Shown here one piece after another: positions 1,643 to 7,769 of a stretch of 64,000 nucleotides of DNA. The translations under genes and the position numbers were made by a program. Each line of letters begins with the position of its first letter. Position 1 is the stretch's first letter. The notes under the pieces were generated by a model. It saw nothing but the letters and a program-made list of their open reading frames with translations. It was not told the DNA's origin and made no database searches. This stretch comes from Thiohalocapsa sp. (GTDB lineage Bacteria > Pseudomonadota > Gammaproteobacteria > Chromatiales > Chromatiaceae), in NCBI GenBank assembly GCA_021736785.1, contig JAIPFF010000017.1, positions 1-64,000 on the forward strand, in the 5' to 3' direction.

Positions 1643-2911
1643 ATGAAACAGCCTGAAAATATCGGATTCGTCTCCACCCGCTTCGCCGGCACCGACGGCG
1701 TGTCGCTGGAGGCGGCGAAATGGGCCGAGGTCCTGTGGGAGAGCGGCCACGTCAGCCACTGGTATGCCGGAGTCCTCGACCGCGATCCCGGCGTCAGCCT
1801 GTGCATCCCCGAGGCCTTTTTCGACCACGCCGAGAACCAGTGGATCAACTCCCAGCTCTGGGGCCGCACCCGCCGCTGCGCCGAGGCCAGCCGCCGCATC
1901 CGCGAGCTGACGGAATACCTGAAGACAACCCTGTACGAATTCCGCGCGCGATTCGAGCTCGACATCCTGATCATCGAGAACGCGCTGACGATCCCGATGC
2001 ACATTCCGCTCGGGGTCGCCATCACCGAGTTCCTGCTCGAGACAGGCATGCCCGCGATCGCTCACCACCACGACTTTCAGTGGGAGCGGCAGCGGTTTCA
2101 GATCTCCGCCGTCGATGACTATCTGGAAATGGCCTTTCCGCCGCGCGTGCCGCACCTGCAGCACGTGGTCATCAATCAGGCCGCGCGCGAGGAGATCGCC
2201 TGGCGCAAGGGACTGCCCAGCATTCTGGTGCCGAACGTCTTCAACTTCGAAAGCCCGCCGGGCGAAGTGGACGCGTACGCGGCCGATGTGCGCCACGCGC
2301 TGGGTCTGCTCGACGACGATCTGTTGATCCTGCAGCCGACGCGGATCGTCCCGCGTAAGGGCATCGAGAACACCATCCACTTGATCCGCCGGCTGCGGCT
2401 GCCGCGCTGCCATCTCGTGATCTCCCACGACGGCGGCGACGAGGGCTTCGAGTACTCGCGCCAGATCCAGCACCTGGCGCACGAAGAGGGCGTGGCGCTG
2501 AAGTTATTCGGTGATCGCATGGCCGACCGGCGCCAGTTCAATCAGGACGGACAGAAGATCTATGTGCTGAGCGACCTTTATCCCCATGCGGACTTGGTCA
2601 CCTTCCCGAGCATCTACGAGGGCTTCGGCAACGCGCTGCTCGAGGCCATCTACTTCCGCCGGCCACTGGTCACCGGGCGCTACTCGGTCTATCAGCGCGA
2701 TATCGAGCCCAAGGGCTTTCGGCTACCCGCCATCGACGGTGTCGTGGACAAGCGCGTGGTCGAGGAGACGCGCCACATCATGGAAAATCCGGCCTACCGC
2801 GAGGAACTGGTGGAGCACAATTACCGCATCGCCGAGCGCTTCTTCGGCTACCGGGTCCTGCGCGACAGCCTGCACAGCCTGATCAACAACGTCCGCAACC
2901 TGACGGAGTAA
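1643..2911 (+). CDS. GT4-family glycosyltransferase, solute-glycoside type
   Basis: A 422-residue cytosolic GT-B glycosyltransferase. It shows an N-terminal GFVSTRFAGTDGVSLEAAKW segment, an HHHDFQWER acceptor-side motif near residue 140, LQPTRIVPRKGIENTI near 230, and the retaining pair in YEGFGNALLEA (Glu326 and Glu334). The N-terminal wording resembles glycosyltransferases found beside GH13 phosphorylases in glucosylglycerate or mannosylglucosylglycerate clusters; that substrate is inference only. The gene ends six bases before the GH13 gene at 2918, so the two are very likely co-transcribed. The start is the first ATG of the conserved region. An alternative role is in an exported oligosaccharide, though no membrane or transport gene is adjacent. 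Confidence 0.85.
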   Translation: MKQPENIGFVSTRFAGTDGVSLEAAKWAEVLWESGHVSHWYAGVLDRDPGVSLCIPEAFFDHAENQWINSQLWGRTRRCAEASRRIRELTEYLKTTLYEFRARFELDILIIENALTIPMHIPLGVAITEFLLETGMPAIAHHHDFQWERQRFQISAVDDYLEMAFPPRVPHLQHVVINQAAREEIAWRKGLPSILVPNVFNFESPPGEVDAYAADVRHALGLLDDDLLILQPTRIVPRKGIENTIHLIRRLRLPRCHLVISHDGGDEGFEYSRQIQHLAHEEGVALKLFGDRMADRRQFNQDGQKIYVLSDLYPHADLVTFPSIYEGFGNALLEAIYFRRPLVTGRYSVYQRDIEPKGFRLPAIDGVVDKRVVEETRHIMENPAYREELVEHNYRIAERFFGYRVLRDSLHSLINNVRNLTE

Positions 2912-2917
2912 TCGCCC

Positions 2918-4822
2918 ATGCGCGTCGTCGAACGCAGCGTCTTCGAGCGCATCCGCGAGCGCCTGCGCACCCTCTACGGCGATGCCTTGCTGGATCGTTT
3001 GATGCAGCGCCTGGACCTCATCGTCGGTCGTTACGGGGTCGGCGTCTCTTGCCCGGAAGACAAACCCTGCCGGCGCTGGGATCAGCGCGACGCCGTGCTG
3101 ATCACCTACGGCGACATGGTCAGCGCCAACGGCGAGCCGCCCTTGACCACGCTGCGCCGGTTTCTGGCGGAGCAGGTCGGCGACGCCTTCTCCGCCGTGC
3201 ACGTGCTGCCGTTCTTTCCGTACAGCTCGGACGATGGCTTCTCCGTCATCGACTATCGGGCCGTGGATCCGGCGCTCGGTGGTTGGGACGAGATCCAGGC
3301 ACTGGCCAACGACTATCGGCTGATGGTGGACCTGGTCATCAACCACGTCTCCGGGCAAAGCCGCTGGTTTCGCGCCTACTGCAACGGCATGGCGCCGGAG
3401 CGGCACTACTTCGTCGAGGTCGACCCGGAGGCCGATTTGAGTGCCGTCGTGCGCCCGCGCACCTCGCCGCTGCTGCGGGCCGTGCACACGCCCGCCGGTC
3501 TGCGCCACGTTTGGGCCACCTTCAGCCACGATCAGATCGACGTCGATTTCTCCAACCCGGACGTGTTGTTCGAGTACCTGGACATCCTGCTCTACTACGT
3601 CCACAACGGCGCACAGATCATTCGGCTCGACGCCATCGCCTATCTTTGGAAACAGATCGGCACCGACTGCATCCACCTGCCGCAGACTCACGAGGTGGTG
3701 AAGCTGCTGCGCGACGTGCTCGACATGCTGGACCCGAGCATCTTGCTGTTGACCGAGACCAACGTACCCCACGCCGAGAACGTCGCCTACTTCGGCGCCG
3801 GCGACGAGGCGCACATGGTCTACCAGTTCAGCCTGCCGCCGCTGCTGCTGCATGCGCTGCATACCGGCAACGCCCGCTACCTGACCGACTGGGCCGCGCG
3901 GCTCGAGCCCCCGCCCCTCGGATGTACCTTCTTCAACTTCACCGCCTCGCACGACGGGATCGGCGTACGCCCGCTGGAGGGCCTCCTGCCGCAAGAGGAA
4001 TTCGATGCGCTGGTGAGCGCGGTGGAGGCCGGCGGCGGCCTGGTCTCCCGGCGCAGCAATGCGGACGGCTCGACGACGCCCTACGAGCTGAACACGACCT
4101 ATTTCGACGCCTTGCGGGTGCCGGACGACCCGCTCGCGTCCATCGCCCGCTTCTTGTGCTCGCAGACCATCGCCATGAGCCTGCAGGGTGTTCCCGGCAT
4201 TTATTTCAATTCTTTGCTCGGGGCATCCAACGATGTTTTCGGCGTCGAGGAGAGCGGGCGCGCGCGCAGCATCAACCGGCAAAAATGGGTCGAGCCGGAA
4301 TTGCTGATGCTGCTCGCCGGCGATTCGGGTCATCAGGCCGGCGGCGTGTTCCCCGAATACCTGCGCCGGCTGCGTCTGCGCGGTGCGCAGCCGGCTTTTC
4401 ATCCGGACGGTCCGCAGCATGTCCTGAGCCTGCCGGCGGGTCTGTTCGGTGTCTGCCGCGATGCGCCGGACGCGAGCCAGCCCCAGAGCATCCAGCACGA
4501 GGGCATCCAGCACGAGGGCATCCAGCACGAGGGCATCCAGCCCCAGCGTCTTTGGATGCTGGCGAACCTGACCGCGCGGACCGTGACCGTCGCCTTCGGG
4601 CGTATCGACCGGCGCTGGAAGCAGTCGCGCTGGACCGAACTGATCGAGGGGCGCCACTACGCGGGCGACGGCGGTGCCGACAAGCTGGTGCTCGCGCCCT
4701 ACCAAGTGCTGTGGCTGGTGCGCCAGACGGCGCCGCCCGGCGCCGCGTCCGGCGACAATGCGCTAGAATCCGCAGCCGGCGGCGATGTCGCGGACTCGGC
4801 GGATGAGCCCCCGACGGCATAG
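2918..4822 (+). CDS. GH13 sucrose-phosphorylase-like glycoside phosphorylase
   Basis: A 634-residue (beta/alpha)8-barrel enzyme of the sucrose phosphorylase branch of GH13. Visible catalytic residues are the nucleophile Asp238 in IRLDAIAYLWK, acid/base Glu280 in LLTETNVPH and the stabilising Asp346 in SHDGIGVRPLEG. DLVINHVSGQSRWF supplies the barrel entry motif. The family cleaves an alpha-glucoside with phosphate to give glucose 1-phosphate; members use sucrose, sucrose 6'-phosphate, glucosylglycerate or glucosylglycerol, and sequence inspection cannot choose. It sits six bases after a glycosyltransferase, and phosphoglucomutase (10042) could feed on its product. A 15-bp repeat adds three EGIQH units at about residues 525-540, and about 40 extra residues extend the C-terminus. 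Confidence 0.85.
   Translation: MRVVERSVFERIRERLRTLYGDALLDRLMQRLDLIVGRYGVGVSCPEDKPCRRWDQRDAVLITYGDMVSANGEPPLTTLRRFLAEQVGDAFSAVHVLPFFPYSSDDGFSVIDYRAVDPALGGWDEIQALANDYRLMVDLVINHVSGQSRWFRAYCNGMAPERHYFVEVDPEADLSAVVRPRTSPLLRAVHTPAGLRHVWATFSHDQIDVDFSNPDVLFEYLDILLYYVHNGAQIIRLDAIAYLWKQIGTDCIHLPQTHEVVKLLRDVLDMLDPSILLLTETNVPHAENVAYFGAGDEAHMVYQFSLPPLLLHALHTGNARYLTDWAARLEPPPLGCTFFNFTASHDGIGVRPLEGLLPQEEFDALVSAVEAGGGLVSRRSNADGSTTPYELNTTYFDALRVPDDPLASIARFLCSQTIAMSLQGVPGIYFNSLLGASNDVFGVEESGRARSINRQKWVEPELLMLLAGDSGHQAGGVFPEYLRRLRLRGAQPAFHPDGPQHVLSLPAGLFGVCRDAPDASQPQSIQHEGIQHEGIQHEGIQPQRLWMLANLTARTVTVAFGRIDRRWKQSRWTELIEGRHYAGDGGADKLVLAPYQVLWLVRQTAPPGAASGDNALESAAGGDVADSADEPPTA
4489..4540 (+). repeat. 15-bp in-frame tandem repeat inside the GH13 gene
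   Basis: Three perfect copies of CATCCAGCACGAGGG (4489-4503, 4504-4518, 4519-4533) plus a 7-base partial copy. The unit is a multiple of three, so copy changes keep the frame and only lengthen a linker in the C-terminal domain. Confidence 0.95.
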
Positions 4823-4859: not shown

Positions 4860-5381
4860 TTGCGTCTGATCGAGAGCCTGCTGTTTCGCCTTTCGGACCG
4901 TTTACCCTGCCGCATCATCGACGGCGAGCAGGGCGAGCCTTATCTGGAGCGCTATTATCTGTTCGGGCTCTTCGGCTGGCATGCCTACCTGCACCGCTTC
5001 GTCGACTCCGATCCCGACCGCGGCCTGCACGATCATCCCTGGGGGCGTGCGCTGAGCCTGGTGCTGAGCGGCGGCTACGACGAGATCCGATTCGCCGACG
5101 GGCGGCAACAATCGACCTGCACGCGCACCATTCGCCCCGGCAGGCTGAATATGCTGCGCGGCGAGGACTATCATCGGGTGGTGCTGCGCGGCGGTCGGCC
5201 GGCTTGGACGCTGTTTTTGCACGGCCCGCGGGTCAAGGGCTGGGGCTTTCTGCAAGGGCGAGCCTATCGGGCCATGGCGCGCGACGCCGGAGAATTCCGC
5301 CATCGCGATTGGTGGCGGCATGCGCCGCGCGGGCATGTCGTGCGGCTGCAGCGCGGCGTGCGGGAATCGGCATCCGCGTAA
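4860..5381 (+). CDS. small cupin-like protein of unknown function
   Basis: A protein of about 173 residues. The central part HDHPWGRALSLVLSGGYDE followed by LHGPRVKGWGF fits a double-stranded beta-helix (cupin) fold, where the two His and the Glu would bind a metal. No substrate can be named. I prefer the TTG at 4860, which has GGGAG six bases upstream; an ATG at 4785 would overlap the end of the GH13 gene and add 25 Arg-rich residues that look non-native. It follows the glycosyltransferase and GH13 genes on the same strand, so it may belong to the same transcript. No signal peptide is seen. Confidence 0.7.
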   Translation: MRLIESLLFRLSDRLPCRIIDGEQGEPYLERYYLFGLFGWHAYLHRFVDSDPDRGLHDHPWGRALSLVLSGGYDEIRFADGRQQSTCTRTIRPGRLNMLRGEDYHRVVLRGGRPAWTLFLHGPRVKGWGFLQGRAYRAMARDAGEFRHRDWWRHAPRGHVVRLQRGVRESASA

Positions 5382-5459
5382 GCGGGTCGTCGCTGGCGGT
5401 CGCGCATGAATGCCGCCGAGCGAGGGCCGCGGAGGATACCGTCAATCAAGGGAGCCGCT

Positions 5460-5744
5460 ATGCTTCAATGCCTCGCTCGGCCGGCATCGGTCCTGCTCAT
5501 CGCCGTGTCCCTATCCGTGCTCGGGGGTTGCGGTGGTGCGCCGGTGCCCGCGGATGACCGGATGCACGTTCGCTGCCTGTCGGAGCCTGTGGCCGGGGCC
5601 TGTCGCTCTGCGCAACCGGGCTTCTACTACGATTACCAGACCGATAGCTGCAAGCGCTTTCTGAGCGGCGGCTGCGGCGGCCGCGTGCCGTTCGCGAGCT
5701 TGGATGAGTGCGTGCGTACCTGCGGGGGCAAGCCGGGCGACTGA
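5460..5744 (+). CDS. Kunitz (BPTI)-domain lipoprotein, predicted serine protease inhibitor
   Basis: A 94-residue protein. Residues 1-24 are a lipoprotein signal with lipobox LGGC, so Cys24 should be lipidated. The rest is a Kunitz domain with six cysteines (39, 48, 64, 72, 84, 88). Spacings are 8, 15, 7, 11 and 3 residues against 8, 15, 7, 12 and 3 in bovine BPTI. PGFYYDYQTDSC, SGGCGG and ECVRTCGG match family consensus segments. The position after the second Cys, the P1 site in the family, is Arg49, predicting inhibition of trypsin-like proteases. It is likely anchored in the periplasm or outer membrane. The start is the ATG at 5460 with AAGGGAGC upstream. Kunitz domains are chiefly animal proteins, so this occurrence is unusual. 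Confidence 0.85.
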   Translation: MLQCLARPASVLLIAVSLSVLGGCGGAPVPADDRMHVRCLSEPVAGACRSAQPGFYYDYQTDSCKRFLSGGCGGRVPFASLDECVRTCGGKPGD

Positions 5745-5823
5745 TCCTGCCCAAGCGCGCGGTGCCGGCATCCGGTCTCGCCGCATCGGGCGCGGCGGGC
5801 TATGTTTAGCTCACTAGGGAGAG

Positions 5824-6974: not shown

Positions 6975-7769
6975 ATGACGGCGATGCTGTTGCGGATCGT
7001 CCGGTCTGCGCCGCGCCCGCGCCGGTTGTGCGCCGCGGGTGTCTTGCTGATTTTCGGCGCCTGCTGCGCCCCGCTCGCTGCCGACAACTGGCAGGGCCGA
7101 CTGCAGTCCGGCGCCGGAATCAGCGTCGATCCGCAGACGCATCGCGTCCTGCGCGACGACGGTGGCAATGCGCGGCCCATGTGGGACGGCGTGCACCGAC
7201 TCGAAGACGGCTCCACCATCATCGTCCGCGACGGCATCGCGATCCCGACCGAGCAAATGTACCGGGCCTGGAAGGGCGAGGTACGCCCGCGGCCGGCGTT
7301 CGAGGCACGCTTCTGCAACCAACTGGTGCGCAAGACTTGCGGTTTCGACCTGGGCTGCAACAACAGCGCGTCTTGTCTGCGCGCGCGCAGCATGCTGTCG
7401 GACGAAGCCCGCGCGCAGCAGAGCCTACCGGCATCCGCTGGTGTCCATCCGCAAACCGAGGCCGGCGAGCGCTGCCGAACGGCCTTGCGGGATCCGGCCT
7501 TCATGACCTGCGCCAGCCTGGAATCGAGCCTCGGGGACAGCCGCTGTCGCGACTTGGTCGATCACGTGTGCGGAGCCGAGCGGAGGTGCGCCGGGGCCGG
7601 CGCCTGCGATGCCGCGGAGCAACTCTTGCGCATGGAGACCGAGGTGCGCCTGGAGAACGACGACCCGAGTGCGCCGAGCAGTATCGGGCGCCAGTGCGTC
7701 GAGGCGATGAGCAATGACTTCTTCGTCGCCTGCGACGCGGGCGGCAGCGTCCCGAAGCATCGTCGCTGA
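6975..7769 (+). CDS. exported cysteine-rich protein of unknown function
   Basis: A 264-residue protein with an N-terminal signal peptide (hydrophobic LCAAGVLLIFGACC, possible cleavage after the Ala residues near 35). The mature part starts with DGSTIIVRDGIAIPTEQMY, followed by a Cys-rich stretch with CNQLVRKTCGFDLGCNN, SRCRDLVDHVCGAERRC and a final QCVEAMSNDFFVAC. The paired cysteines imply several disulfides and an extracytoplasmic location. I do not recognise the family. It is convergent with htpG, and a strong hairpin lies between them. Confidence 0.7.
   Translation: MTAMLLRIVRSAPRPRRLCAAGVLLIFGACCAPLAADNWQGRLQSGAGISVDPQTHRVLRDDGGNARPMWDGVHRLEDGSTIIVRDGIAIPTEQMYRAWKGEVRPRPAFEARFCNQLVRKTCGFDLGCNNSASCLRARSMLSDEARAQQSLPASAGVHPQTEAGERCRTALRDPAFMTCASLESSLGDSRCRDLVDHVCGAERRCAGAGACDAAEQLLRMETEVRLENDDPSAPSSIGRQCVEAMSNDFFVACDAGGSVPKHRR

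Follow-up and report, generated by a model that had tools for sequence, protein, structure and literature searches.

Textbooks treat Kunitz inhibitors as animal proteins, and PF00014 is mostly an animal family, within which channel-blocking and other non-inhibitory proteins also exist. BPTI (aprotinin) and the other animal single-domain inhibitors (PF00014, MEROPS I2) share with the bacterial protein described here the predicted fold, the six cysteines and a reactive loop with Arg or Lys at P1, together with Gly12 and Gly36-Gly37 (BPTI numbering), but the bacterial family adds a lipoprotein anchor and a D24-Y25 pair that is present in 61 of its 62 members. It also differs from nine animal domains that we compared, which carry N-x-[FY] where 58 of the 62 bacterial domains have xPF, and its last loop is one residue shorter. 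The third Kunitz domain of the carboxypeptidase inhibitor SmCI (PDB 4bd9) is the best match of our protein among PDB sequences, with YYYDY common to both, but SmCI is a three-domain animal protein with a 12-residue loop, and we do not take the likeness as a sign of descent. Boophilin, which comes up below, is a tick protein. Two other inhibitors found in bacteria, ecotin and alpha-2-macroglobulin, have folds unrelated to the Kunitz fold.

What ecotin (PF03974) and bacterial alpha-2-macroglobulin have in common with our protein is the proposed protection of bacteria from foreign proteases (PMC5893882, PMC8080830), ecotin being reported to shield Pseudomonas aeruginosa from neutrophil elastase (PMC5893882) and alpha-2-macroglobulin domains being described in Vampirococcus (PMC8080830). 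Kunitz domains are themselves already known from bacteria, five having been reported in Acinetobacter baumannii F6W77 (KABP1-5), of which KABP1, modelled on boophilin, and KABP5 reportedly inhibit factors Xa and XIa, with P1 Arg proposed as key (PMC11511053). Unlike our protein, that one has five domains and a 15-amino-acid signal and is presented as an exotoxin. The string 'contamin' is absent from the main text of that paper, so animal contamination of that Acinetobacter assembly is conceivable and worth checking. Within the open PMC literature, we found no paper joining Kunitz domains with Chromatiaceae and, by title, none on a bacterial family of this kind. What appears to be new here is that purple sulfur bacteria have a conserved family of anchored Kunitz proteins, together with the loop signature of the bacterial domains, a natural paired loss of cysteines and a pairing with a cupin gene.

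The Kunitz lipoprotein gene and its domain

The gene occupies positions 5460–5744 on the forward strand of the window, by which we mean the whole 64,000-nucleotide stretch of Thiohalocapsa sp. DNA analysed (assembly GCA_021736785.1, contig JAIPFF010000017.1), as an open reading frame of 94 amino acids with its stop codon at 5742–5744. A ribosome-binding-site-like AAGGGAG (5448–5454) stands 5 bases upstream of the ATG; an alternative upstream start at 5406 (112 amino acids) was set aside because this stretch and the signal peptide suit 5460. On the 3′ side lies a terminator-like stem-loop (5777–5799) whose occurrence is at chance level (one found versus 0.9 expected). The putative signal peptide (5460–5528) is hydrophobic, and its end forms, with Cys24 (codon 5529–5531), a lipobox by motif inspection, LGGC, with Gly at +2. 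From the anchor Cys a linker of 14 residues (5532–5573; 12–22 across the family, median 15), with a conserved Val two residues ahead of the first domain cysteine, leads to a domain that extends from Cys39 to Cys88 (5574–5723). Within this domain, Arg49 (5604–5606) corresponds to BPTI position 15, that is P1, and together with Gly46 and Gly70-Gly71 ahead of the fourth cysteine gives a reactive loop suited to trypsin; D58-Y59 (5631–5636) corresponds to BPTI 24-25, and V76-P77-F78 (5685–5693) lies in the shortened bacterial loop.

In a Pfam search the protein's sole match was to PF00014 Kunitz_BPTI (E 7e-11, 42.6 bits versus a cut-off of 21), with none to the ecotin profile, and NCBIfam, PHROG and PADLOC likewise yielded no match. 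The six cysteines are in Kunitz order with spacing 8-15-7-11-3, the last long loop being one residue shorter than in BPTI. A phmmer search against PDB sequences returned 101 distinct sequences at E ≤ 1e-3, and the best 60 of these all carry names of Kunitz-domain proteins. AlphaFold2, given 35 aligned mature proteins, produced a model (mean pLDDT 81.6, pTM 0.65) that shows the elements typical of the Kunitz family: a short helix near the N-terminus, a beta hairpin and a helix at the C-terminus. Confidence is lowest over residues 1–10 of the model, which belong to the linker. With this model as query, the 50 matches listed by Foldseek were Kunitz proteins only (best E 8e-5, TM 0.79 by target); those listed by VIA-align 2 were all Kunitz by title, a BPTI variant aligning across 57 residues with an rmsd of 1.9 and a Z of 7.4 (below 8).

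Profile match and predicted fold thus confirm what the earlier note had proposed from the letters alone, one real Kunitz/BPTI domain, in a predicted lipoprotein, and its readings of the cysteine spacing, of Arg49 as a trypsin-type P1 and of the lipobox hold in the sequence, the last being kept as a motif in 62 of 62 family members. That note had also asked for a profile search, which found the Kunitz family, and for a structure prediction with a particular disulfide pattern. The predicted fold is indeed Kunitz; the pairing 5-55, 14-38 and 30-51 would follow from the spacing, the fold and one relative in which C14 and C38 are lost as a pair. This relative, from Chromatium okenii (locus L045, 6979–7212, identical in sequence to L093), has Gly and Arg in place of C14 and C38, which are the partners of one BPTI disulfide, in a domain that is otherwise intact, and their joint loss lends backing to Kunitz pairing. 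Each feature whose test gave a clear outcome places the protein in PF00014, from which we infer that it may act as a Kunitz inhibitor.

Carriers, loop signature and origin

The host genome has no PF00014 match other than the window protein. Among 93 genomes searched, 21 (host counted) have a Kunitz match, including eight of nine other genomes of the host's genus, and none was found in 14 control genomes. In the host's family the gene is carried by 62 of 210 genomes (host counted), spread over 17 of 61 genera with one match per genome, and was not found in the other 148. Elsewhere, matches came from 3 of 368 other genomes in a class sample and 2 of 397 in a phylum sample, the two samples overlapping. 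A scan of named records with a single pattern containing the YDY motif, which is blind to Kunitz proteins lacking it, returned 35 loci: 34 have titles of Chromatiaceae or its genera by NCBI taxonomy (Thiohalocapsa, Thiocapsa, Halochromatium, Marichromatium, Chromatium, Thiodictyon, Candidatus Thiosymbion and others) and one is titled Gammaproteobacteria bacterium. Record titles place the gene in cultured DSM strains as well. Viral contigs, plasmids and phages contained no relatives of the gene, and there is hence no sign of mobile carriage.

We read the domain in all 62 carrier genomes of the family. Exactly 8-15-7-11-3 was found in 61 (60 of the 61 relatives besides the host), the Chromatium okenii protein being the exception, and all 62 have, on inspection, a lipobox-like motif with no Asp at +2, where this residue would hold a lipoprotein back in the inner membrane. 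After an uncounted number of pairs with pS outside 0.05–0.7 had been dropped, dN/dS was below 1 in all 96 remaining close pairs (median 0.13), which indicates purifying selection, although the pairs overlap and are not independent. The existence of relatives in 61 other family genomes, every one with a lipobox and 60 with the same cysteine spacing, and dN/dS below 1 make the gene more than a product of chance. Judged from sequence, the Kunitz lipoprotein is a resident, conserved family of purple sulfur bacteria and not a one-off import.

The shortened loop reaches beyond this family. Five other proteobacterial Kunitz domains (L022, L023, L024, L060 and L061), three of them lipoprotein-like and two ordinary secreted-like on inspection, also have an 11-residue loop with [VI]PF, and none of the five has the DY pair. 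In the family itself, the loop ahead of F45 reads VPF in 42 of 62 members and xPF with a different first residue in 16, and departs from this pattern in four. In each of 60 PDB chains listed, many of them BPTI variants, the matched span by our reading exceeded that of the bacterial profile by one residue or more. We built a maximum-likelihood tree on 50 columns, omitting the indel column, from 61 distinct family, five other bacterial and nine animal domains (75 sequences). It split the animal domains from all the bacterial ones with an ultrafast bootstrap of 90, while the family parted from the remaining sequences with 68; both values are below the usual 95. The tree is one of few columns, with nine animal domains, no protists and one bacterial phylum. 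Bacterial Kunitz domains therefore appear, with moderate support, to be separate from the nine animal ones.

These data bear on whether the gene was recently acquired from an animal, or is eukaryotic contamination of the assembly, a reading suggested by the mainly animal membership of PF00014 and by the sparse occurrence of the gene in the class (3 of 368 other genomes). Against it stand bacterial neighbours in a synteny common to several genera, the lipobox in all 62 members, the presence of the gene in cultured strains, the one-residue shortening common to Chromatiaceae and five other proteobacteria, and the animal/bacterial split at a bootstrap of 90, short of the usual 95. We consider such an origin highly improbable. 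The split and the shared loop argue against recent transfer from animals, and an ancient transfer may have taken place. The notion of the gene as an oddity probably acquired from eukaryotes, for which the earlier note proposed a phylogeny as a check, fits poorly with 62 carriers, a bacterial loop signature and a tree that sets bacterial domains apart, with moderate support, from the nine animal ones. A lipid-anchored branch in phototrophs, with a consistent structural difference, turns the age of the fold, or a wider native range for it, into a testable question.

The reactive loop and possible functions

Our preferred reading, held with modest confidence on the strength of sequence and model, is that the protein is an envelope-anchored, single-domain Kunitz inhibitor of trypsin-like proteases, most likely foreign ones. 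The lipoprotein would be exported and, with +2 not Asp, sorted to the outer membrane, its N-terminal lipid fixing the single domain to the envelope; the domain would fold with three disulfides, and the P1 Arg loop would act by the standard mechanism, entering the S1 pocket of trypsin-like (S1A) serine proteases and so blocking their active site. The targets would be proteases of predators, grazers or competitors, most likely not the cell's own, and the protein would serve as an anchored shield for envelope proteins, working like ecotin or bacterial alpha-2-macroglobulin. In its favour, P1 is basic in 38 of 62 members (Arg in 34, Lys in four), and Gly37 is kept in all 38 of these. On the other side, the remaining 24 have a non-basic P1 (Ser, Ala, Gly, His, Pro or Asp, making eight residue types in all), Gly37 being gone in 13 of them. 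Moreover, the lipoprotein may face the periplasm instead of the outside, which would not suit a surface shield, and the 148 of 210 family genomes in which the gene was not found also count against this reading.

Non-basic P1 and loss of Gly37 go together (Fisher 3e-7 over 62 genomes; p 0.037 on hand-tallied genus-level combinations). Counted on the domain tree within the family, changes of Gly37 number about two and changes of P1 class about seven (two and 10, respectively, with animal and other bacterial domains included), and since the same residues went into building that tree we regard the association as a hint. About seven switches of P1 class within the family are as expected for an inhibitor with changing targets. 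As part of the best explanation, it seems reasonable, from the residues alone, to suppose that in some lineages the loop altered its specificity or lost trypsin-type activity.

The same variability can be read in another way, with the Kunitz fold as a binding or structural module that does not inhibit proteases and whose real interface is formed by D24-Y25 and the N-terminal Val. By BPTI numbering, D24-Y25 lies away from the reactive loop; as a conserved patch in that position it is unaccounted for by inhibition, and so counts against an inhibitor role. The pair and V3 are each kept in 61 of 62 members while P1 takes eight residue types; residues vary more in the reactive loop than elsewhere in the domain (mean entropy 2.19 versus 1.55 bits); and in several genera the loop is degraded and the gene still under purifying selection. 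However, changing protease targets would also yield a variable loop, and basic P1 occurs with Gly37 in 38 of 62 members, the window protein included. A non-inhibitory module is, in our judgement, unlikely.

Regulation of an envelope serine protease of the cell itself (e.g. of HtrA/DegP type), exerted where the outer membrane faces the periplasm, is the other function to be weighed. Trypsin-family PF00089 matches occur in 57 of 58 family genomes searched, eight of them in the host, and the default topology of lipoproteins is periplasm-facing, both of which would suit such a role. The best of the host's eight matches (E 6.5e-21) falls in a low-scoring band that is nearly universal (91 of 93 genomes match) and that we infer to be HtrA-like; near-universal HtrA-type proteases contrast with a patchy Kunitz gene, and HtrA prefers small aliphatic P1 residues, not Arg. 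No protease was seen among the recurrent neighbours identified, part of those listed having been classified. Strong trypsins, defined as PF00089 matches at E < 1e-38, a cut set after the gap in the list had been seen, occur in 4 of 21 Kunitz-bearing versus 5 of 37 Kunitz-free family genomes (p 0.71, 58 genomes), and we rejected a cognate strong trypsin as the target for this want of co-occurrence. Regulation of the cell's own protease thus seems quite unlikely to us, and the earlier note's suggestion to that effect was not backed by these counts. As high-scoring trypsins are absent from the host genome and do not co-occur with the gene, foreign targets are favoured.

As to whose proteases these might be, host defence, also raised in the earlier note, is unlikely as a general role because most carriers are, we presume, free-living phototrophs. 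A simple link to predators meets a difficulty too, in that Vampirococcus lugosii is reported to prey on and kill a Halochromatium-like bacterium (PMC8080830), yet the genus that holds the Halochromatium loci has a degraded loop, with basic P1 in none of eight genomes and Gly37 lost in seven; either this lineage escaped the need for the inhibitor or its protein has another job. Ecotin (PF03974) was found in 0 of 21 carriers, the host among them, versus 3 of 37 non-carriers, too few to count. A bolder proposal, which we advance tentatively and hold to be rather doubtful, is that the domains with an 11-residue last loop, mostly with hydrophobic-Pro-Phe, form an old native bacterial Kunitz branch and that the purple sulfur bacterial protein is an anchored shield against predator and grazer proteases in ecotin's place. 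If the branch were native and old, animals may not be the fold's only ancient home. Whether bacteria eaten by bacteria and protists use protease inhibitors as a defence is a second testable question.

Gene neighbourhood

Directly upstream of the Kunitz gene lies a cupin-fold gene (4872–5381, forward strand; its start codon is not settled, the open reading frame beginning at 4785), which matches a PHROG annotated 'cysteine dioxygenase' and no Pfam family. Wherever the two genes occur in one family genome (19 of 19), the Kunitz gene is directly 3′ of the cupin gene on the same strand, a firm observation. These genomes belong to three genera, two of which have differing further neighbours, sugar genes in Thiohalocapsa and rubrerythrin in Thiocapsa, the latter identified by a Pfam run on one cluster member, from Marichromatium. 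Co-occurrence of the two genes gives a Fisher value of 9e-4, uncorrected for relatedness; the cupin gene is absent from 43 of 62 Kunitz carriers, and the Kunitz gene from 16 of 35 genomes with the cupin gene.

Further upstream (1643–4822) are a glycosyltransferase, which resembles mannosylglucosylglycerate synthase with a score well under its cut-off, and a GH13 sucrose-phosphorylase-like gene. This pair, possibly an osmolyte locus, also adjoins the Kunitz gene in Thiohalocapsa, Halochromatium, Lamprobacter and Thiosymbion loci. On the downstream side, most Thiohalocapsa loci and one Halochromatium locus have a cysteine-containing protein with no Pfam match, which lies at 6975–7769 in the window. 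The GH13 gene itself contains, at 4496–4540, a short in-frame repeat, HEGIQ, in three copies.
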